From assembly GCA_030751095.1 (NCBI GenBank), contig JASMGX010000018.1, positions 1 to 33,999 on the forward strand: a stretch of 33,999 nt of DNA, given 5' to 3'. This DNA comes from Pirellulales bacterium. Lineage in GTDB: Bacteria; Planctomycetota; Planctomycetia; Pirellulales; UBA7805. The notes under the pieces were generated by a model that was given only the letters and a program-made list of their open reading frames with translations, had not been told where the DNA came from and did no database searches. The stretch's first letter is position 1. The number at the start of each line of letters is the position of its first letter. The position numbers and the translations under genes were made by a program. This document shows, piece by piece, positions 23,084 to 33,999 of the stretch.

Positions 23084-24400
23084 TCAGTCCTCTTCGTGCC
23101 GCGAAGCCTCTTTTCGAGAGGCCACCTCATCGCGCGAAAGACCTATTTGCACATTGTCCTGCGCGGAGAGCAAATCGAGTGTCCAGTCGATGGCCACCCG
23201 GAGCCTGCGACGCCAGCCTGGCATTTTTAGAAGGTAGACCGTCCGCCAGAGAAACCAGGCGGGCCAACCGGAAATATTGAAACCAAAAATCCGCGCCACT
23301 CCCTTGTAGGAACCGAGTGCGGTCAACGAACCGAGCATCTTAAAATCAAAAGGTTTAGTCGACTCCTTCCGCAGGCAGAAGACCAGGTTGCGCGCCAAGT
23401 GCGGCCCCATCCGTACAGCGTTCTGTGCCGTTGCCGTGTAGGGGTTGCCATCAGCATCCCGATTCACCGCACAGTCGCCGATCGCCCAGATATTGGAGTG
23501 GCCCTCGACGCGAAAGTCCCGCTCGCAACGCACCCAGCCGTCCGAGTCTTGCGCAAGATGGGTGGTCGCCACGAGCGGCGGAGGTGCGATTCCCGCACAC
23601 CAGATCACCGTTCGGCAGCCGATCCGCTCTCCGGAATCCGAAACCACATAATCGGCCCCGATCTCGAGGACCGACTGATTCAGATGGATGACCATTCCAT
23701 GTTTGATGAGTTGTTTGGCGGCATAGTTGGCTAGGTGCGCACCGACGGCGGGAAGAATCCGCTCGGCGCGCTCAAAGAGCGTCACGCAGCAGTCGCCCGG
23801 ATTGATATTTTTATATTTTCTCGCCGCGCTCTGCATAAACGCCAGAAATTCGCCCGCCACCTCCACGCCTGTGAAGTTGCCCCCCACGACAACGAAATGC
23901 AGAAGGGTTCGTTGCTTTTCGCGGTCGGTGATCGCATCGGCCCACTCGAGAAGCTGGATCACACGGTCGCGCAAAAGCAGCGCGTCGGGGAGCGACTTGA
24001 TTTGGTAAGCATATTCTACAAGACCGGGTAGCGGCGGCAGACGATTCACGCTCCCGAGCGCCAAGACCAGATGGTCGTAATGCAATGTCCGCAACTCACT
24101 GTCGCCAACGATCCGATAGCGTACCATCTGCGAATCCGAATCGAGACCGGTCACCTCGGCCATGCGAAACGTCGTGTGGCGCAAAAATGCCCGGATCGAG
24201 ACGACTGCATGCCGCGGCTCGAGTTTGCCGATCCCCGCTTCGATTAGGAGCGGGAAAAAAACAAAATAATTATGTCGGTCGAGAAGAACGACCTCCACCT
24301 CATCGGGATCGAGCCGTTTCTCCAGTTCTTGAGCGCAGTAGGCACCCCCAAAACCGCCCCCCACGATCACAATCCGCACCTTCGATTGTTCGTCCTGCAT
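23084..24400 (-). CDS. ndh: Type II NADH dehydrogenase (NDH-2), FAD-dependent
   Basis: Transfers electrons from NADH to quinone without pumping protons. I start at 24400 (438 residues), where MQDEQSKVRIVIVGGGFGG begins; the 46-residue upstream extension of the frame looks non-coding. The first Rossmann motif VIVGGGFGGAYCAQELEKRL binds FAD, and LLHFVVVGGNFTGVEVAGEF binds NADH; the middle residue is Asn-Phe instead of the usual Gly-Pro. NIWAIGDCA is the second FAD block. The C-terminus has an aromatic stretch and a basic segment (WPAWFLWRTVYLLKMPGWRR) that would dock on the membrane. It ends with a rho-independent terminator and is divergent from the DsbB pair. Confidence 0.93.
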   Translation of the reverse strand: MQDEQSKVRIVIVGGGFGGAYCAQELEKRLDPDEVEVVLLDRHNYFVFFPLLIEAGIGKLEPRHAVVSIRAFLRHTTFRMAEVTGLDSDSQMVRYRIVGDSELRTLHYDHLVLALGSVNRLPPLPGLVEYAYQIKSLPDALLLRDRVIQLLEWADAITDREKQRTLLHFVVVGGNFTGVEVAGEFLAFMQSAARKYKNINPGDCCVTLFERAERILPAVGAHLANYAAKQLIKHGMVIHLNQSVLEIGADYVVSDSGERIGCRTVIWCAGIAPPPLVATTHLAQDSDGWVRCERDFRVEGHSNIWAIGDCAVNRDADGNPYTATAQNAVRMGPHLARNLVFCLRKESTKPFDFKMLGSLTALGSYKGVARIFGFNISGWPAWFLWRTVYLLKMPGWRRRLRVAIDWTLDLLSAQDNVQIGLSRDEVASRKEASRHEED

Positions 24401-24671
24401 GGGATTTTTCCGTCTGCTCGGAATAACAAAAAGAGCCATGGCGATTTTAATAACCCAAGGGGGCGATGGCAAGTTTACGCGACGAGCATACGCGTTTCGG
24501 TCCTCTGCCGGGTACGGCATCATTGCTACACCCACCACCGTCGGCGGCCGCTGGCCACCGGTTTTTAAGAAAGCACCTTCGCGTTAGGATTGATAAGAGC
24601 CTGACCATGGGAATTTGGGAGGCATTTCAAATCCGATCGCTTCTCACATCAAACACCGGAGAGAACAACCA

Positions 24672-24841: not shown

Positions 24842-25426
24842 ATGAACATATCCGAGCGAGAACCGACACTCGACTCCCTGCCCGTGCGACTGCAGTGGTG
24901 TTTGCTGCACCTTTATATTCTGGGAATCTGCGGCATTCTGTTGGCCGCGTTTTTCGTCCAGTTCGGCTTGGGAGATGCGCCTTGTACGCTCTGCCTGCTC
25001 CAGCGCTGCTGCATGATCCTGGCCGCACTCGGCCCGACTTGGATCATCGCAACCGCGACGGGCACTTCGGCCAGCCCGCTGGAAAACCTGAGCCGCGGTT
25101 TCGGCATATCGGTCATCGCGTCGGTCCTAGGTCTGACCATCTCCGCCCGCCAGATTCTCATGCACATCGCACCTGGCGATCCGGGCTTTGGCATACCAAT
25201 ATTCGGATACCACCTCACCACATGGTCCTTTATCATCTTTTGGGTCATTCTGCTCATCAGTGGAACGACACTTCTTTTTTCCCGGTCCCTCGCCCCCACG
25301 GCCAAAAGCCAGTTGGGGCGCTACAGCAAAGCAACGCTCGCTCTCCTGGGGAGTCTCATTTTCGCCAACGTCGTGGTGGTCTTCTTCACGCACGGAGCGT
25401 TTGCCCCGCTGGTGCAAACGCCCTGA
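24842..25426 (+). CDS. dsbB: DsbB-like quinone-dependent disulfide bond protein
   Basis: A 194-residue membrane protein with about five hydrophobic segments. DsbB reoxidises the periplasmic thiol oxidase DsbA and passes electrons to quinone. Cys48 and Cys51 (DAPCTLCLLQR) form the quinone-proximal CxxC; ISARQILMHIAPGDPGFGIP is a block shared with a DsbB subfamily. The second periplasmic Cys pair of E. coli DsbB (104/130) is missing: no Cys occurs after about residue 57. Disulfide exchange must therefore differ. No dsbA is seen in the window. The gene converges on the gamma-glutamyltransferase gene with 10 bases between them. Confidence 0.85.
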   Translation: MNISEREPTLDSLPVRLQWCLLHLYILGICGILLAAFFVQFGLGDAPCTLCLLQRCCMILAALGPTWIIATATGTSASPLENLSRGFGISVIASVLGLTISARQILMHIAPGDPGFGIPIFGYHLTTWSFIIFWVILLISGTTLLFSRSLAPTAKSQLGRYSKATLALLGSLIFANVVVVFFTHGAFAPLVQTP

Positions 25427-25436
25427 GCGTACCGCT

Positions 25437-27146
25437 TCAGTAGGCCATCGCCACCCGGCCCGTCGCGGCGTCGCCCGCGACTTGGATGCGGCCTGTCTGC
25501 GGATCGAGCGCGAGCATGCAGGGTGCGCCGATCGGTCCGCCCGTCACTTCAATCACGTGCCCGCGAGCTGCCAGCGACTCGGCAACCTTGGGGGCAAGTC
25601 GCGGATCGAGCGTAAGATTTGCAAGCTGTGGCGCCGGCTGCCGAAAAGAGCCGATCAAGTGCCGCGTGCCATACCGCGCCGCGGCGGTCGCCTCGCGCGG
25701 TCCGATGCCCTCGACGAGATGCGTAAGAAGCAACTGGAGCGCCACCTGATCCTGCCAGTCGCCCCCGGCGACGCTAATCCCCGCGACCGGAACTCGATCG
25801 CGCATGATGAGCGTTGGGGTGAGCGTAATCCGCGGCCGCTTGCCCGGCGCAATGCAGTTGGGATGATTTGGCCAGAGATTAAAACTCTGTAACCGCGAAC
25901 CGAGACGCACTCCGGTCTCGCCCGCCAGTTCCCCGGCCCATCCGCTCGGGGTCGCGACAACCACCTGCCCTTCTTTGTCGGCCACGATGCAATTGGTCGT
26001 ATCGTGGACCGGTCCACCTGCCGCTGCATCCCAACGGTAACCGGCCAGCAGCGGCCGCATGTCGCCCGGGTCGCCCGGTTGCAACTCTCGGGACGCCTGC
26101 TCCGGATCGATCAACGGTCGGCGGAGGGCCACATAGGCACTGGAAAACAGTTCGCGGAGCGGAACGGTTGCGTAGAGGGGATCTGCGTAATAGGCATCGC
26201 GATCGGCGAGGGCCAGCTTCATCGCTTCAACGACATAATGGATGCTGACCGGATCGGTCTGGCGATAATCAAATTCTTCAATCGCCTCTAAAAGTTGTAG
26301 GGTCTGTAGCAAATAAGGTCCCTGCGTCCACGGCCCGCATTTATATATGGTGTGGCCGAGAAAATCTGCCGCGAGCGGTTGCTCGATGCGGGTCCGGTGC
26401 GCGGCGAGGTCCTCATAGCGAAGCAGGGCCCCGTTTTTTCGCGACCAGGAGTCGATCTGTTTTGCGATCGAACCGCGGTAAAACAGATCCGACACCGCAG
26501 AGAGCCGCTCGGCACGACCACCACGTGCACCGGATTCCGCGGCACACAATGCCTTAAAAGTTTTTAATAGATTTTGCTGCCACTCTCCATCGCCCGCCTC
26601 AAGCAACTGCATCGTCGGTGCGGCAGATTCCGCAAAACTCCTGGTGCCGTATCTGGCAAGGAGTGTCACACAGGCATCGAGCACCGCCGGAACGGCCGCC
26701 GCCTCCGCGCCCCGCCCCGGGATTCCGCCCCGCTCGGCGAAATAAGCCCGCGTCGCCAGACGTGGGGCCGCCCCCTGTCCGGCGAGCACCTCTACTTTTT
26801 TCACTGCCGGATCGTAGACGAGGATCGGCACCTCGCCACCGAAGCAAAACAGTTCGCGGCCGGCCGGATCGATCACCGAAAGGACCAGTAGCGACGCGAC
26901 AGCGGCATCCGCAGCGCCACCGCCCGTCTTGAGCATTGCCAATCCTGCCTCGGTTGCTTTGGCGTTGCCTGTGGCCACACCGCCCCGATAGCCTTCATCC
27001 GCAGCACGTTCTAGCGGCCCATCTGCCAGCAAAAGCCTACTTGCACCCGCTGCCCACGGCAGCGCGAGACCGACCGCCGCAGAGCGAAAAAGCGTTCGAC
27101 GATTCACCCGCAGGGGAGTTTGACGACCTGTCAATGGATTCTCCAC
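25437..27146 (-). CDS. Divergent gamma-glutamyltransferase, TAT signal
   Basis: Ntn hydrolase that normally cleaves glutathione gamma-glutamyl bonds in the periplasm. With the GTG at 27146 it has 569 residues, and RRTLFRSAAVGLALPWAAG is a twin-arginine signal. A TTG at 27134 has a better SD (GGAG) and may be the true start. GGGAADAAVASLLVLSVIDP is the family N-terminal block, and CIAPGKRPRITLTPTLI a C-terminal one. The autocleavage site is HDTTNCIVAD: Thr383 would be the nucleophile, followed by Thr-Asn instead of the usual Thr-His. The later catalytic loops are also altered. The substrate may not be glutathione. It lies convergent with dsbB. Confidence 0.85.
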   Translation of the reverse strand: MENPLTGRQTPLRVNRRTLFRSAAVGLALPWAAGASRLLLADGPLERAADEGYRGGVATGNAKATEAGLAMLKTGGGAADAAVASLLVLSVIDPAGRELFCFGGEVPILVYDPAVKKVEVLAGQGAAPRLATRAYFAERGGIPGRGAEAAAVPAVLDACVTLLARYGTRSFAESAAPTMQLLEAGDGEWQQNLLKTFKALCAAESGARGGRAERLSAVSDLFYRGSIAKQIDSWSRKNGALLRYEDLAAHRTRIEQPLAADFLGHTIYKCGPWTQGPYLLQTLQLLEAIEEFDYRQTDPVSIHYVVEAMKLALADRDAYYADPLYATVPLRELFSSAYVALRRPLIDPEQASRELQPGDPGDMRPLLAGYRWDAAAGGPVHDTTNCIVADKEGQVVVATPSGWAGELAGETGVRLGSRLQSFNLWPNHPNCIAPGKRPRITLTPTLIMRDRVPVAGISVAGGDWQDQVALQLLLTHLVEGIGPREATAAARYGTRHLIGSFRQPAPQLANLTLDPRLAPKVAESLAARGHVIEVTGGPIGAPCMLALDPQTGRIQVAGDAATGRVAMAY

Positions 27147-27511: not shown

Positions 27512-27546
27512 AAAAAAACCCCCAGCCAGTTGGCACTGGCCGGGGG
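27512..27546 (-). terminator. Strong rho-independent terminator of the Cys-rich gene
   Basis: On the minus strand CCCCC-G-GCCAGT (27546-27535) pairs with ACTGGC-T-GGGGG (27530-27519) around a four-base loop, followed by seven T (27518-27512). It lies about 60 bases after the stop at 27608, so it ends transcription of the cysteine-rich gene. Confidence 0.8.
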
Positions 27547-27607
27547 CGGTAGAAAACATCAAATTTTGAACTGCGTTTCCTGCAAAGAAACATCAGCTCG
27601 TTTCATC

Positions 27608-28027
27608 TCAACACGACTTTCTTTTCTTGCAGCAATCGCCATCATCGTCGCCGCAGTCCAAGATCGTCGTGCAGCCATCACCCCTGCCGCAGCAATCATC
27701 ATCGTCGCTACCGCAGTCTAAGCTCATCGTGCAGCCATCACCCCTGCCGCAGCAATCATCATCATCGCTACCGCAGTCTAAGGCCGATGTGCCGAAAACG
27801 GCGCTGCCACAATCGCCACCACACTCACAACCTTTGCAGTTGCAACCTGCGCAATTGCAGTTGGTGCACTTGCCATCAGCACAACCACACTCTTTGCAAT
27901 CACAATCATCGCCACAGCAACAGGCTGCAACATTGGTCGGCAGTTCAGAAGCCGAGATCGCCGAGGGTCCAAAAATCGCCGCAACTGCAATAGCCATGGC
28001 GCCAAAAATTGAGATACATTGAGACAT
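27608..28027 (-). CDS. Exported cysteine-rich tandem-repeat protein (possible metal binder)
   Basis: 139 residues, with AAGGAG eight bases before the ATG. A signal peptide (SIFGAMAIAVAAIFGPSAIS) is probably cut near residue 26. The mature chain of about 113 residues has 27 cysteines. Residues 36-73 are a metallothionein-like stretch of CxC and CxxC (CDCKECGC, CTNCNCAGCNCKGCEC). After a short spacer come 20-residue repeats at 83-102 and 103-122 (LDCGSDDDDCCGRGDGCT), and a shortened third at 123-139 ending KKRKSC. The Asp-rich repeats could also bind metal ions. No family recognised; a metal-binding or disulfide-cross-linked envelope protein are both possible. It has its own terminator and lies in the region divergent from the copper-dependent caa3 oxidase. 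Confidence 0.75.
   Translation of the reverse strand: MSQCISIFGAMAIAVAAIFGPSAISASELPTNVAACCCGDDCDCKECGCADGKCTNCNCAGCNCKGCECGGDCGSAVFGTSALDCGSDDDDCCGRGDGCTMSLDCGSDDDDCCGRGDGCTTILDCGDDDGDCCKKRKSC
27611..27781 (-). repeat. 60-base coding tandem repeat in the Cys-rich gene
   Basis: Two nearly identical 60-base units (27722-27781 and 27662-27721) and a divergent third (27611-27661) encode the Cys/Asp repeats. The first two differ by only a few bases, which implies recent duplication or homogenisation. The length is a multiple of three, so copy number can change without frameshift. Confidence 0.85.
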
Positions 28028-28142
28028 TGTAAACTCCTTCTGCGGATATTCTCCGCTTCATTGTTGAAAAAAGAATCGATAAAAAGAAAACTTCGGATCG
28101 CAATTCAATCTGCAATAACAAAAAGATTGCGAAGTCGACTCT

Positions 28143-28559
28143 TTAATTCAACCAGACGCCAAACATGGCGTGCAGGCGTAAAGGAGTGCTGTGGGAAGAG
28201 TCCGTACCGGTCCACCGACAGAGATTCAGCCTGTCGTCCTCCAGTGGAAGCAGACCGTTTTGGTAAGCGGGACTCTCTTGGGTCGGTTGATTTTTTTCGC
28301 CAGCGAGAACGACAGTTTGCGGCTCCACTTTTTCACAGCCGCCACAACAGCGACTCTGCCTGAGAGTACGCTCCATCTGGCCACAGACTGCCGTTGCCCT
28401 CTCTTGGCAGCAAGTGCCAGAGACTTGCGAGTCGCTATCGGCTCGGATACCGGCAAGACACCGACAGGCCGAAAACAGACTACCCGGCAACGCAAGCGCA
28501 GCGACCAACAGGAGCGCCGTCGACTTTTTGCGGGTGAAGTTCAGGGGGCGAGATTTCAT
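28143..28559 (-). CDS. Exported protein with clustered cysteines, function unknown
   Basis: 138 residues, with GGA 12 bases before the ATG. A signal peptide (KKSTALLLVAALALPGSLFS) is followed directly by CRCLAG; a lipoprotein is possible (LFSAC), but the -3 residue is not ideal. Nine cysteines lie mainly in CRC, TCC and RCCGGC. The C-terminal half is polar with no clear domain. It lies 115 bases upstream of the Cys-rich repeat gene on the same strand and divergent from coxB. The shared position and cysteines suggest linked roles with the neighbour. No family recognised. Confidence 0.6.
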   Translation of the reverse strand: MKSRPLNFTRKKSTALLLVAALALPGSLFSACRCLAGIRADSDSQVSGTCCQERATAVCGQMERTLRQSRCCGGCEKVEPQTVVLAGEKNQPTQESPAYQNGLLPLEDDRLNLCRWTGTDSSHSTPLRLHAMFGVWLN

Positions 28560-28911
28560 ACTATTTTTTCCAATGACGATCCATCGATTTCACCAGATTC
28601 CGTGCCGACCACCGGACGGACGATACGCCCCGTCCGCTTTGGCGAGCCACTGGAGTTTGTACGCACCCCGCTGCCCGATGGTTTGGCAGAAAATATCTCT
28701 GCGCCAGAAAAGAAATGCGATTGGCAGGGTGATTTTTCCCGAAAATCGGCCAAATAATAATTTTTTTTTCGTCCGGAAAGATAATTTTCTCACCCTCAGA
28801 AAACTCCGCCTCCATTGGCTCGATTGCCTGCTTTGCATGCGGTGCGACTTTGCTATAATCCGGCCAACAAGTTGCCAGCCAAAGATAGGGAGGTCCGGTT
28901 TTCGGTTCAGA
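28560..28911. other. 352-base divergent regulatory region between the Cys gene and coxB
   Basis: Holds the caa3 promoter (annotated apart) and presumably one for the minus-strand gene, which I could not place. It includes an A/T-rich tract (AAATAATAATTTTTTTTT, 28752-28769) that could bend DNA or be an UP-like element. The coxB frame stays open through this region back to 28414, but it overlaps the minus gene and lacks coding character before 28912. Confidence 0.5.
28832..28859 (+). promoter_or_regulatory. Extended -10 promoter of the caa3 oxidase operon
   Basis: A perfect TATAAT (28854-28859) is preceded by TGC, giving the extended -10 form TGnTATAAT. A TTTGCA -35-like element starts at 28832 with a 16-base spacer. 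Transcription would begin near 28866, leaving a leader of about 46 bases that carries AGGGAGG (28887-28893) before the ATG at 28912. Confidence 0.65.
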
Positions 28912-30081
28912 ATGATTGGCACCGCAAACACCTGGGGCATCATCGGCAAATCAAGCATGCTTCGGCTTGTGCTCGCTAGATTCTTTGCCATCGGGTCCTT
29001 CCTGATCGGGATCTTTGCAATCGGGCTCTTTGCAATTGGATGGTCGTTCGCCACACCGCTTCATGCTGCGGATTCAGACCCCGTCGAAACTCTCGAGAGT
29101 CTCGAGACCGACCGTAACATGCGGGTCTTCGAACCGGAATCACCAAACTCAACCACCATTGCCGAGGTGACCTACCTGCTCATCGGAATCCAGGCGGTTA
29201 TCTTTTTACTCGTCGGTATTCCTCTATGTATCATCCTCTGTCGTTATCGTCACCGCAAAGCGGATGATGGAATTGAACCGCCCCAGGTGTATGGGAGCAA
29301 TCCGATCGAAGTGGCCTGGACTGTGGGACCTGCAATCACCGTCTTTGTGATCTTTCTCGTAACGACCCGCAGCATTTATGAAATTCGGGCAGCGCCCGCC
29401 CCTCCCGAGGCGGTCCATGTCCGCGTGGTCGGACATCAGTGGTGGTGGGAGTATGAATACCTCGAGAAAAACGAGTCGGGCTACACCTCCCTGTTTACGA
29501 CGGCCAACGAGATGCGCGTTCCGCTCTCAGAAGAGGGAACGCCACGACCGGTTTACCTCGACCTGGAGTCGGCCGATGTGATGCATAGCTTCTGGGTACC
29601 ACAACTCGCCGGCAAGACTGATTTGATACCGGGACGCGTCAACCACATGTGGTTTCAGCCCGAGCATGCCGGTTGGTATACAGGCCAATGCGCAGAATAT
29701 TGTGGCACACAACACGCCCATATGTGGCTTCGAGTTAAGGCAGAAAACAAAGAGGATTTTGACAAGTGGGTCGCGAACGAGCGAAAAGACGCAGTCACAG
29801 ACCCCACCGTTGCCGCCGGGCGCACACTGTTCCTGACCAACGCCTGTGTCAATTGCCACACCATCAAAGGCACCCCCGCTCGGGGGCAGGTTGGTCCCGA
29901 CCTGACGCACCTGATGACCCGCAAGACTCTTGCCTCGGGCATTATTCCCAACACAAAAAAATACCTGTTACAGTGGCTGCGTGATCCAGACAGCATCAAA
30001 CCGGGGTGCAACATGCCGCAAATGAAACTCACGGATGACGATTACAACAAAATCCTGGACTACCTTCTAACATTAAAATAA
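28912..30081 (+). CDS. coxB: Cytochrome c oxidase subunit II with fused cytochrome c (caa3 type)
   Basis: I chose ATG 28912 (389 residues) because it follows the predicted transcription start; ATG 28957 is an alternative with a neater signal peptide. The leader helix has a repeated FAIG motif (FFAIGSFLIGIFAIGLFAIG). Two membrane helices follow (about 88-110 and 136-152). The CuA site is complete: His225, Cys260, Glu262, Cys264, His268, Met271 (CAEYCGTQHAHM). VVGHQWWWEYEY is the aromatic electron-entry patch. A C-terminal cytochrome c domain has CVNCH (312-316) and Met368. It accepts electrons and passes them to subunit I. First gene of the cox operon. Confidence 0.95.
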   Translation: MIGTANTWGIIGKSSMLRLVLARFFAIGSFLIGIFAIGLFAIGWSFATPLHAADSDPVETLESLETDRNMRVFEPESPNSTTIAEVTYLLIGIQAVIFLLVGIPLCIILCRYRHRKADDGIEPPQVYGSNPIEVAWTVGPAITVFVIFLVTTRSIYEIRAAPAPPEAVHVRVVGHQWWWEYEYLEKNESGYTSLFTTANEMRVPLSEEGTPRPVYLDLESADVMHSFWVPQLAGKTDLIPGRVNHMWFQPEHAGWYTGQCAEYCGTQHAHMWLRVKAENKEDFDKWVANERKDAVTDPTVAAGRTLFLTNACVNCHTIKGTPARGQVGPDLTHLMTRKTLASGIIPNTKKYLLQWLRDPDSIKPGCNMPQMKLTDDDYNKILDYLLTLK

Positions 30082-30106
30082 CAAGACGCAATCAACCGCT
30101 AAGAAC

Positions 30107-31777
30107 ATGGCAAGCATCGATACCCCCTCGACACCAAAAGATTCCACCACCGTACCGCTGATAACGCGGCTGCACGGCTGGGTGATATCGGTCGATCACA
30201 AACGCATCGGCATCATGTATCTGCTGATGAGCTTCCTGTTTCTGATTCTCGGTGGCGTGCAAGGGCTCTTCATCCGGATGCAACTCTGGGGCCCCAACGG
30301 AACCGTGGTCGATGCCGATACCTACAATCAGTTGTTTACGATGCATGGCACGACGATGATTTTCTTCGTGCTCATGCCGATGCTCGGCGGTTTTGCAAAT
30401 TTCGTGGTGCCGCTGATGATCGGCGCCCGAGACGTCGCCTTCCCGCGTCTCAACGCGATGGGATTCTGGCTCTCCTTTTTCGGCGGCTGCGTGCTTTACT
30501 ACAGTCACCTCGGTGCCGAGGGTCTCTACGGCGCGGCGAGTGCTCCGGATATCGGCTGGTTCGCCTACGCACCACTCACCTCACCCGCATTTTCCCGCGG
30601 CAATGCAACCGACTACTGGATCCTCGGCACGACCCTAACCGGGGTGGGGGCGATCTCCCTGGCGGTCAACATGGTCGCCACGATCTTCACCATGCGGGCA
30701 CCCGGGATGCGTCTGACAAAGATGCCCCTCTATGTGCTTCTTTTCCTGGTAGACGCCATTTTGATTCTTCTCGTTTTTCCACCGTTTGCGGCGGCCCAGT
30801 TTATGTTGCTGCTGGATCGTTTCCTCGGGGCCCATTTTTTCGATCCCCAGGTGGGAGGCTCCGCCCTGCTCTGGCAGCATCTCTTCTGGTTTTTCGGTCA
30901 TCCGGAGGTCTATATCCTTGCGCTGCCTGCCTTTGCCGTGATCTCGGAGGTGATCCCCGTTTTTTCCCGTAAGGTGATCTTCGGGTATCTCTCGATGGCC
31001 GCTGCGACCATCGCAATCGGATTTATCAGCTGCGGGGTCTGGGCGCACCACATGTTTACGGTCGGCTTGAGCGATACCCTCGATACGTTTTTTGCAGGAG
31101 CGACCATGCTGGTCGCAATCCCGACCGGAATCAAAATATTCAATTGGGTAGCAACCATGTACGGTGGCCGCCTGCGATTGCAGACCCCGATGCTCTATGC
31201 CCTGGGATTTCTCACTCTGTTTTTGTTTGGCGGACTCACCGGCATTATGCTGGCGTCACCCCCGTTTGACTGGCAGGCCTCAGACAGCGCCTTTTTGGTC
31301 GGCCATTTCCATTACACCTTGGTCGGCGGGATCCTGTTCGCATTTCTTGCCGGATTCTACTACTGGTATCCCAAGATGTTCGGCCGGATGATGAGTGAGC
31401 GACTTGGCATCATCCAGTTTGCGTTCACCTACATCGGCTTCAACGCCTTATTTATTCCGATGCACATCGTGGGCATGCTGGGAATGCCACGGCGGATCTA
31501 TACCTACACCGATCCGAGCTGGACCATCTGGAACCAGATTTCCACCATCGGGGCCTTCATGATGGCCATCGGTCTTCTGCTCTTCCTCTACAATTTCTTC
31601 TCCTCGCTTCGCCACGGCAAAATTGCCGGAGACGATCCATGGGACGCCTGGACACTCGAGTGGAACACCACGTCCCCACCCCCCTGTTACAACTTCAAAG
31701 AAATACCGACGGTCCGCAGTCGACGGCCGTTGTGGGATTTAAAACATCCCGACGATCCGGACTGGAAGCATGAGTAA
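30107..31777 (+). CDS. coxA: Cytochrome c oxidase subunit I
   Basis: 556 residues with about 12 to 14 membrane helices, containing low-spin haem a and the haem a3-CuB centre that reduces O2. MHGTTMIFFVLMPMLGG holds a haem His. FGHPEVYILALPAF has the CuB His, the proton-pathway Glu and the cross-linked Tyr, marking an A1-type enzyme. HHMFTVG gives two CuB His, and GHFHYTLVGG two haem ligands. GARDVAFPRLNA carries the D-channel Asp, and PTGIKIFNW the K-channel Lys. It lies 25 bases after coxB. The ribosome binding site is weak. Confidence 0.97.
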   Translation: MASIDTPSTPKDSTTVPLITRLHGWVISVDHKRIGIMYLLMSFLFLILGGVQGLFIRMQLWGPNGTVVDADTYNQLFTMHGTTMIFFVLMPMLGGFANFVVPLMIGARDVAFPRLNAMGFWLSFFGGCVLYYSHLGAEGLYGAASAPDIGWFAYAPLTSPAFSRGNATDYWILGTTLTGVGAISLAVNMVATIFTMRAPGMRLTKMPLYVLLFLVDAILILLVFPPFAAAQFMLLLDRFLGAHFFDPQVGGSALLWQHLFWFFGHPEVYILALPAFAVISEVIPVFSRKVIFGYLSMAAATIAIGFISCGVWAHHMFTVGLSDTLDTFFAGATMLVAIPTGIKIFNWVATMYGGRLRLQTPMLYALGFLTLFLFGGLTGIMLASPPFDWQASDSAFLVGHFHYTLVGGILFAFLAGFYYWYPKMFGRMMSERLGIIQFAFTYIGFNALFIPMHIVGMLGMPRRIYTYTDPSWTIWNQISTIGAFMMAIGLLLFLYNFFSSLRHGKIAGDDPWDAWTLEWNTTSPPPCYNFKEIPTVRSRRPLWDLKHPDDPDWKHE

Positions 31778-31822
31778 CCCAACCCGAAACCACGAATCAA
31801 TACGAACTGGAAAGAGTCGACC

Positions 31823-32446
31823 TTGAGCACCGCCGCCCTAGCCTCTGACGCAAACCACGCACCCACTGAACCGTCGCGGTTCACCACGCGGGAGACGGGC
31901 TTGTTGGCATTCCTCTGCACGGAGGGGTCCCTGTTCACGACGCTGATTATCACCTACATCATTTTTCTCGGCGAGAAGATGCCTGGTGAAATCCCGGGGG
32001 AAATGCCAACACCGTCAAATTCACTTGACCTGGGACTGGTGATCATCAACTCCATCTGCTTGTTGAGCAGCAGTCTCACAATCTATTTCGCGCTCTCTGC
32101 GAGGAAGCGCGGCGCCCACGGTCTCTACCTCGTCTGGTTTGGCCTGACCATCCTGCTCGGCTTGGAATTTGTCGTGGGAACCGGGTACGAGTGGTACGAC
32201 CTGATGACCAAGTACCACCTGTTCCCGAGTACGAACACGTTCGGAAGCACTTTTTATCTGCTGATCGGATTCCATTGCCTGCACGTACTCATTGGAGTCG
32301 TGACCATGTCCATCATTTGGGCCTTCGATGCGTTGCGATGGCTGACGCCAAAGTGCGAAGCACCGGAAATTGTCTCCTGGTACTGGCATTTTGTGGATGG
32401 AGTCTGGGTGGTTATTTTTACCCTCGTTTACATTGTCGGCCGCTGA
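31823..32446 (+). CDS. coxC: Cytochrome c oxidase subunit III
   Basis: 207 residues, five or six membrane helices, stabilising subunit I. FLCTEGSLFTTLIITYIIF and FHCLHVLIGVVTM, and the final WYWHFVDGVWVVIFTLVYIV, are conserved in the family. The only plausible start is TTG at 31823, with GGAAAGAG upstream; the short N-terminal tail ahead of the first helix (FTTRETGLLAF) is normal. It is 45 bases after coxA. Confidence 0.94.
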   Translation: MSTAALASDANHAPTEPSRFTTRETGLLAFLCTEGSLFTTLIITYIIFLGEKMPGEIPGEMPTPSNSLDLGLVIINSICLLSSSLTIYFALSARKRGAHGLYLVWFGLTILLGLEFVVGTGYEWYDLMTKYHLFPSTNTFGSTFYLLIGFHCLHVLIGVVTMSIIWAFDALRWLTPKCEAPEIVSWYWHFVDGVWVVIFTLVYIVGR

Positions 32447-32471
32447 GCAAATTTTTCACACAAGATAACCC

Positions 32472-33269
32472 ATGAACGAACAATACCAACACGACCAACA
32501 ACCGAGTACACCGCAGCAAGGCATCTTGATGCCGCGGCCGACTGCCGCCCCGCTTGTGCTCGCCTTCGGGGTCATGCTGATTGCGTGTGGTCTGGTACTC
32601 AATTACGCCTTTTCGGCCGTTGGTCTGGTGCTGGTACTCGGTGGCCTGGCTCGCTGGATTTACATTCTGGCCAGTGGCACCGGCGAAGAGCTGGTACCGC
32701 TCGAACGAGAACCGGCCCCGGTCAAAATTTCGCGTGTTCAGGTTGAGCCGTTGCGGCCCGGCATGGCAGGACACCGGATGAAAATTCCCCTCGAAGTGCA
32801 TCCCTACTCGGCCGGCCTGAAGGGAGGCATCATTGGCGGGATTGCAATGGCGGTGACCGCGCTGGCCTACGGGCTCATCTCCGGCCGCGGGCTCTGGTAT
32901 CCGGTCAACCTACTCGGGGGCATGGTCGTGCCGAGCGTTGTTCATTGGACACCTGCCGAACTGGCACAATTCCATTTCATGGAATTCGCCATCGGCACCG
33001 TGATTTTTGGCTTTACGGCGATTGCAGTCGGTTTGATGTTCGGAATCCTGCTGCCAACCATGCCCCGCTGGCCGATACTCTGGGGCGGTATCGTCGCCCC
33101 GGTACTCTGGACCGGCGCAATCTACAGCTTTATGGGAATCCTCAATCCGGCGCTCGGTGAGCATATCGACTGGGAATGGTTTTTCGTCTCTCAGTTCGCG
33201 TACGGCATCACTGTGGGAATTGTCGTTGTCCGCACTGAAAAGATACCTGTTTCCGGCATAAAAAAATGA
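32472..33269 (+). CDS. Multi-helix membrane protein of the caa3 operon, subunit IV-like N-terminus
   Basis: 265 residues. An N-terminal pair of helices (APLVLAFGVMLIACGLVL, VGLVLVLGGLARWIYIL) resembles the small subunit IV of bacterial caa3 oxidases, though this is tentative. A hydrophilic stretch of about 50 residues follows, then a four-helix part (GGIIGGIAMAVTALAYGLIS, HFMEFAIGTVIFGFTAIAVG, PILWGGIVAPVLWTGAIYSF, FAYGITVGIVVV). It lies 25 bases after coxC, and its stop overlaps the next start in an ATGA, so it belongs to the operon. The role may be oxidase assembly or a structural subunit; I do not recognise a family. Confidence 0.7.
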   Translation: MNEQYQHDQQPSTPQQGILMPRPTAAPLVLAFGVMLIACGLVLNYAFSAVGLVLVLGGLARWIYILASGTGEELVPLEREPAPVKISRVQVEPLRPGMAGHRMKIPLEVHPYSAGLKGGIIGGIAMAVTALAYGLISGRGLWYPVNLLGGMVVPSVVHWTPAELAQFHFMEFAIGTVIFGFTAIAVGLMFGILLPTMPRWPILWGGIVAPVLWTGAIYSFMGILNPALGEHIDWEWFFVSQFAYGITVGIVVVRTEKIPVSGIKK

Positions 33270-33999
33270 CGCACACCCTATCGCAAACACGATCGGCAAT
33301 GGTTCTCTCGGGGGTTCTCTCAGGGTTCCTCCTTGCCTGCCTGATCACAGGTGGCTGCTCAAAACGGGCGCACCATTCCGATCAAGCAGACCGTGTCGAT
33401 ACCTCGCTTGTAAAGTTCGATCAGTGGATGCCGGGAAAACCGATCCGGAGTGATCGCGTACCAGCCTTTGACAAAATGATGGATCCTGTGTCACTTTTTG
33501 ATATAAGCTGCGTCGGCTGCCATGGCGCCGATGGACAATTCGGACCCGCCCCACCCCTGAACGATCCGCTCTTTCTGTCCATCTTTTCTCAGGAAGAGAT
33601 GCGCTCGCTACTGCGACAGGGACGCCCCGGCGCGCTGATGCCCTCCTTTGGCAGAGAACATCGCGGGGGACTCTCCGGTGAACAGCGGGACGCACTCGTT
33701 GCAGGGGTCTATCACCGATGGGCTGTGAGCGAAGGCCTACCAGCCGGAACGCCAACCTACCAGGCAGCCACCAAGGGGGATGCGGCTGCCGGTCGAGAAA
33801 AGTTTGCCATCTACTGCGCCGAATGCCACGGCCCACAGGGCGCGGGTGGAGAGGGTGGCCGGCTCAACGAACCTGCATTCCTGTCTCTCGTAAGCGATCA
33901 GTTGTTGCGGCGGATTATGATCACCGGACGGCATGACCTGGGGATGCCCAACTTTGTCGGTATCGGCAAGCAGAGTAGCACGGGCGAGGTGCTCACCGG
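33266..33999 (+). CDS. Dihaem cytochrome c lipoprotein (3' partial)
   Basis: Begins with ATG at 33266 in an ATGA overlap with the previous gene; no stop appears before the window end, so it is truncated after about 244 residues. The N-terminus is a lipoprotein signal with lipobox ITGGC (Cys31). Two class I cytochrome c domains follow: CVGCH at 82-86 with Met ligand candidates near residue 125 (ALMPSF), and CAECH at 184-188 with GMPNF later. It is likely a membrane-anchored electron carrier that supplies the oxidase, an inference from operon position. Confidence 0.85.
   Translation, partial: MTHTLSQTRSAMVLSGVLSGFLLACLITGGCSKRAHHSDQADRVDTSLVKFDQWMPGKPIRSDRVPAFDKMMDPVSLFDISCVGCHGADGQFGPAPPLNDPLFLSIFSQEEMRSLLRQGRPGALMPSFGREHRGGLSGEQRDALVAGVYHRWAVSEGLPAGTPTYQAATKGDAAAGREKFAIYCAECHGPQGAGGEGGRLNEPAFLSLVSDQLLRRIMITGRHDLGMPNFVGIGKQSSTGEVLT

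Follow-up and report, generated by a model that had tools for sequence, protein, structure and literature searches.

A putative exported metallothionein-like protein and a conserved Cys-rich partner in a likely two-gene unit of Pirellulales

The stretch of DNA analyzed here (the window) comprises 33,999 nucleotides of a Pirellulales bacterium (GenBank assembly GCA_030751095.1, contig JASMGX010000018.1, positions 1 to 33,999). On its reverse strand lie two adjacent genes for small Cys-rich proteins (Table 1), of which the second had been described in a first-pass annotation as encoding an exported protein with about a quarter of its mature chain in Cys, arranged first as dense CxC/CxxC and then as 20-residue Asp/Cys repeats. 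This description agrees with what we find. From the N-terminus onwards, the 139-residue protein consists of a clear hydrophobic stretch with a cleavage-like A-I-S-A, a Cys-dense region of CCC, CxC and CxxC motifs (residues 36 to 73), and a 20-residue Asp/Cys repeat, which TRF resolves into 60-bp units with 89% matches. Its Cys residues number 28 in total, 27 of them among the 112 residues past residue 27 (24%). The protein begins with MSQC, in which no residue is basic, whereas most relatives have Lys or Arg ahead of the hydrophobic stretch. The ribosome-binding site, AGAAGGAGTTTACA-ATG, is as good as had been claimed; the sequence ahead of the ATG reads AGAAGGAG. The gene is present as a single copy in the assembly, which is listed as 82% complete.

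Table 1. Features of the Cys-rich gene pair, in window coordinates
Feature	Position	Strand	Evidence
Partner gene: Cys-rich protein of exported type (138 aa), hydrophobic stretch followed by CxC, ends RLHAMFGVWLN	28143..28559	-	Directly upstream of second gene in relatives
Gap from partner stop to second-gene start, 115 nt, RBS AAGGAG	28028..28142	-	Sequence
Second gene: metallothionein-like, exported-type, 139 aa, ATG start	27608..28027	-	ORF and relatives; no Pfam/NCBIfam/PDB family
Probable export signal (residues 1-27), hydrophobic stretch not preceded by a basic residue	27947..28027	-	Sequence
Conserved Cys core, residues 34-77, AACCCGDDCDCKECGCADGKCTNCNCAGCNCKGCECGGDCGSAV	27797..27928	-	Profile match
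Asp/Cys tandem repeat, 60 bp / 20 aa, 2.6 copies	27629..27782	-	TRF
Intrinsic terminator after the metallothionein-like gene	27518..27547	-	13-pair stem, then T run; equivalents in relatives

The pair is flanked by genes for a type II NADH dehydrogenase (23084-24538, reverse strand), DsbB (24842-25426, forward strand) and gamma-glutamyltranspeptidase (25437-27146, reverse strand), all three of which also adjoin it in G003 and G005, two genomes of the same genus. On the other side lies a cytochrome oxidase cluster (28414-33997, forward strand): a coxB with a fused cytochrome c, coxA, coxC and a gene for a cytochrome c in which two cytochrome matches were found. As listed, coxB begins at 28414 and overlaps the partner gene; this start is probably too early.

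The second protein was compared with Pfam, NCBIfam and PDB at permissive thresholds and matched no sequence in any of them, in keeping with the first-pass view that it belongs to no recognised family. By the broad, functional definition of a metallothionein, the protein is small, has a Cys-rich mature chain in CxC/CxxC arrangement, and contains few aromatic residues; the term metallothionein-like is thus apt, outside the recognised families. The SmtA-type family PF02069 has no match in the protein at E up to 1 or 10 and none genome-wide, and, unlike the SmtA type, which has no signal peptide, the window protein has a hydrophobic N-terminus with a cleavage-like site. As regards Csp1, DUF326 (PF03860) is matched nowhere in the window genome, and the N-terminus of the window protein contains no RR of the kind found in Tat signals. 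The plant type 2 metallothionein family PF01439 is weakly matched (E = 0.005) by one of 12 relatives, a lone match that is probably due to composition.

When the genome contigs were scanned with the window protein as a single sequence, no match was obtained, which we attribute to the shortness of the core and the local nature of the repeat. With the core alignment as query, five loci were found, and whole-genome searches recovered the core from Lacipirellulaceae as well as from two genomes of the window genus. The 41-residue core is present in nine other Pirellulales genomes, and the named records that carry it include Lacipirellula limnantheis, Adhaeretor mobilis, a Pirellula MAG, and the MAGs UBA7805 and TMED10. 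It was not found in viral contigs or plasmids, and in a phylum-wide draw of 392 genomes it matched the window genome only. Hence, within what was searched, the close form appears to be confined to Pirellulales.

Over the 41 aligned core positions, the 15 Cys columns are 99% conserved, compared with 67% for the other columns. Between the window and G538, 8 of the 15 Cys codons differ, yet all still encode Cys; more generally, all 15 core Cys are retained while up to 8 of their codons change synonymously between species. Because other genomes preserve the reading frame, and because the core Cys are kept despite such codon changes, the ORF is more than a chance one. Synonymous divergence (dS) is saturated for most pairs, and therefore only this Cys-codon argument, and not dN/dS, was used. 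Some relatives have one core, and two (G091 and G487) have two. The Asp/Cys repeat, in contrast, was found in the window genome only; in its place, relatives of the same genus have a short CC-containing tail. The repeat noted in the first-pass annotation is therefore real, but it is a local elaboration and not a defining part of the family.

The partner gene, which the first-pass annotation passed over, lies directly upstream on the same strand. In every relative for which upstream sequence is available, a same-strand partner precedes the metallothionein-like gene at a distance of 79-230 nt (G005 is outside this comparison, as its contig ends before the partner's place). The partners of the relatives have 132-174 residues, a hydrophobic N-terminus, further CC/CxC motifs and a C-terminal RLHxxxxxWLN or close variant, and most have a CxC just after the hydrophobic N-terminus; the window's own partner has both the CxC behind the hydrophobic stretch and a C-terminus of the RLHxxxxxWLN type. 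The second gene, for its part, is of the export type, with at least 12 Cys in 45 aa and an intrinsic terminator closing it. No terminator was found on the minus strand within the 115-nt gap, terminators stand 3' of the second gene at the relatives' loci too, and sigma-70-like sites occur upstream of the partner in G487 and G091. From the adjacency, the closing terminator and these promoter-like sites we infer that the partner and the metallothionein-like gene are co-transcribed as a two-gene unit. The terminator, which had been assigned to the metallothionein-like gene as its own, is indeed strong, but it closes what is likely a unit of two genes. Export of both proteins is suggested by their hydrophobic N-terminal segments. 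AlphaFold gave no confident structure for either protein (mean pLDDT 46 and 50), as is expected of an apo metallothionein, but also of a shallow alignment; the second protein is predicted, with low confidence, to be disordered.

The association was also approached from the side of the partner. A DNA pattern for the partner C-terminus was used first; as its final TRR also accepts TGG, which is not a stop, it gave many noise matches, and a match was retained only where a true stop ended a Cys-rich frame. These led to second genes in G507 and G522 that the core profile had missed. A partner profile then added G602, G499, G558 and G733, in each of which the partner adjoins a Cys-dense gene of the export type, and an extended profile gave more matches in the family of G711. 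Across both profile searches, 33 genomes have a partner match at E ≤ 1e-6, and in 30 of them a Cys-dense second gene (at least 12 Cys in 45 aa) lies immediately downstream, although the first profile was built mostly from loci picked for their second gene. For matches outside the alignments at the same threshold, which constitute an independent test, a second gene is present in 3 of 4 cases with the first profile and in 15 of 17 with the second. None of 53 control loci (171 kb, both strands) has such a gene. Of the three remaining strong-partner genomes, two have the partner in RND heavy-metal efflux operons, and one (G823) has neither arrangement. Weaker partner matches are mixed, several being without a Cys-dense neighbor.

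The second genes so collected share a hydrophobic N-terminus (31/31), in further accord with the claim of export, and a Cys content of 22-33%; 30 of the 31 have no His. Their Cys spacing differs between families, so that common descent of them all is not proven and convergence is possible.

Other Cys-rich neighbors were seen beside partner-like genes. In G781 (L132), G819 (L137) and G789 (L133), such genes adjoin small proteins with motifs of the type CPVxGxxL...CCxxCxxxL, one of which is a sub-threshold YHS match; they are possibly another metal-handling neighbor. In G509 (L136), a borderline partner match adjoins a Cys-rich protein of the exported type (1949-2542) made up of CC-containing repeats of another kind.

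The efflux operons bear on the function of the partner. In G711, the gene order is OEP (outer-membrane efflux protein), partner, HlyD_D23/HMBD adaptor and RND pump, and the pump scores above the TIGR00914 (CusA/CzcA) cut-off. Among solved relatives it is closest to E. coli CusA (666 bits, versus 435 for ZneA), and the three Met residues of the CusA Cu/Ag site (M573, M623 and M672) align with Met in the G711 pump. In G900 the gene order is identical up to the adaptor (OEP, partner, HMBD-containing adaptor), and a borderline partner match in G819 (E = 1e-3) also stands ahead of a heavy-metal adaptor of this type. Thus, the partner appears to have a heavy-metal role, probably in Cu/Ag handling, and by association so does the unit. 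The same operons strengthen the case that the second protein may bind metal, which its sequence had suggested. In the window genome itself, RND pumps matching TIGR00914 are found on contigs C17, C153 and C166, one of them above the cut-off.

Taken together, we lean towards the view that the second protein is a metallothionein-like buffer that acts on soft metals, probably Cu(I), outside the cytoplasm and is served by a dedicated partner. It would be exported, and its disordered Cys core (CCC, CxC and CxxC, without His) would form thiolate clusters around soft metal ions, of which Cu(I) is the likeliest; the Asp/Cys repeat would add metal capacity in the window species; and the partner, perhaps held at the membrane, might help to load, protect or position the second protein, such that the unit would buffer or detoxify metal outside the cytoplasm. 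In favor of such a buffer are (I) the retention of the Cys columns while codons and other residues vary; (II) the Cys-rich composition and export-type N-termini of both proteins; (III) their same-strand adjacency in many Pirellulales; (IV) the recovery, by way of the partner, of second genes outside the set that had defined the family; and (V) the location of some partner relatives that have no metallothionein-like neighbor within RND heavy-metal efflux operons. Against it, an oxidising extracytoplasmic space would favor disulfides. The argument for copper draws mainly on the two partner loci and the absence of His. A bolder version, which we put forward only tentatively, is that of an undescribed and widespread copper module of Pirellulales, in which an exported Cu(I) metallothionein and a Cys-rich partner common to CusCBA-type pumps would pass extracytoplasmic copper to, or keep it from, efflux and cuproenzymes.

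The protein could instead be exported and metallothionein-like but act on Zn/Cd, or in soft-metal and oxidative stress generally, with no particular tie to copper. Its Cys density would suit any thiolate metal, and the adaptors linked to the partner match CzcB models too; nevertheless, we consider this rather unlikely, since the sole complete efflux operon with a partner is nearest to CusA and, unlike the well-studied bacterial Zn metallothioneins, which use His, the 31 second genes encode almost none. A His-rich metallothionein of Pseudomonas provides an example (PMC7387436).

We give still less weight to a disulfide-rich structural or redox protein outside the cytoplasm, serving in cell-wall or matrix cross-linking or as a thiol buffer. 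The compartment is oxidising, and in the window genus a gene of the DsbB family is located at a distance of 2.2 kb; however, the CCC/CxC packing and variable Cys spacing make for poor disulfide patterns, no Pfam family is matched, and the partner occurs in metal-efflux operons too.

The first-pass annotation had also drawn attention to a nearby copper enzyme. The divergent coxB, whose subunit II retains the CxxxCxxxHxxM CuA motif, does adjoin the unit in both the window and G003, but in the other Pirellulales examined no metallothionein-like gene of this kind stands beside coxB. We therefore reject a general link to cytochrome oxidase and treat the adjacency as one at the level of the genus. 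In Lacipirellulaceae, purD precedes the unit, and a divergent Rieske/cytochrome b cluster lies beyond. That the protein stores copper for, or donates it to, assembly of the neighboring oxidase, in the role of the exported Csp1, is very improbable, for all the complete CuA motif next door and the complex III genes near the Lacipirellulaceae units, as the other families examined lack the gene at coxB and the neighbors of most relatives are unrelated to respiration.

In the open-access literature on metallothioneins of Planctomycetes/Planctomycetota, on periplasmic metallothioneins and on Cys-rich copper proteins of Pirellula, we found no description of such a unit. If our reading is true, this conserved family of exported, metallothionein-like proteins and its partner would extend metal buffering beyond the inner membrane, and the survival of thiolate clusters in an oxidising compartment would become testable. 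The partner would also serve as a genomic beacon for fast-evolving Cys-rich proteins that are missed by sequence similarity alone.

Several known systems invite comparison. SmtA/BmtA, PmtA and other Pseudomonas metallothioneins are likewise small and Cys-rich, with CxC/CxxC motifs and predicted metal-thiolate binding; the window protein differs from SmtA, BmtA and PmtA in matching no PF02069, having an export-type signal, lacking His and being paired with a conserved partner. Export would be unusual among bacterial metallothioneins, which the cited literature treats as cytoplasmic or, in the case of PmtA, as without a signal peptide even though it is found at the P. aeruginosa cell surface (PMC11237414). 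The likeness to the plant type 2 family is restricted to the single relative mentioned above. Operons of the CusCBA/CzcCBA kind contain partner relatives in G711 and G900, whereas the window unit is without a pump, the CusA/CzcA-family pump of the window genome being on another contig. MymT, a small Cys-rich Cu(I) metallothionein of mycobacterial copper defence, is much smaller than the window protein, shows no relation to it in the family searches and is not described as exported (PMC7558416). Csp1, which is exported, rich in Cys and proposed to be an extracytoplasmic Cu(I) store (PMC7558416), would resemble the window protein in these first two respects; Csp, however, folds into a four-helix bundle and carries a Tat signal, whereas the window protein is predicted, with low confidence, to be disordered.
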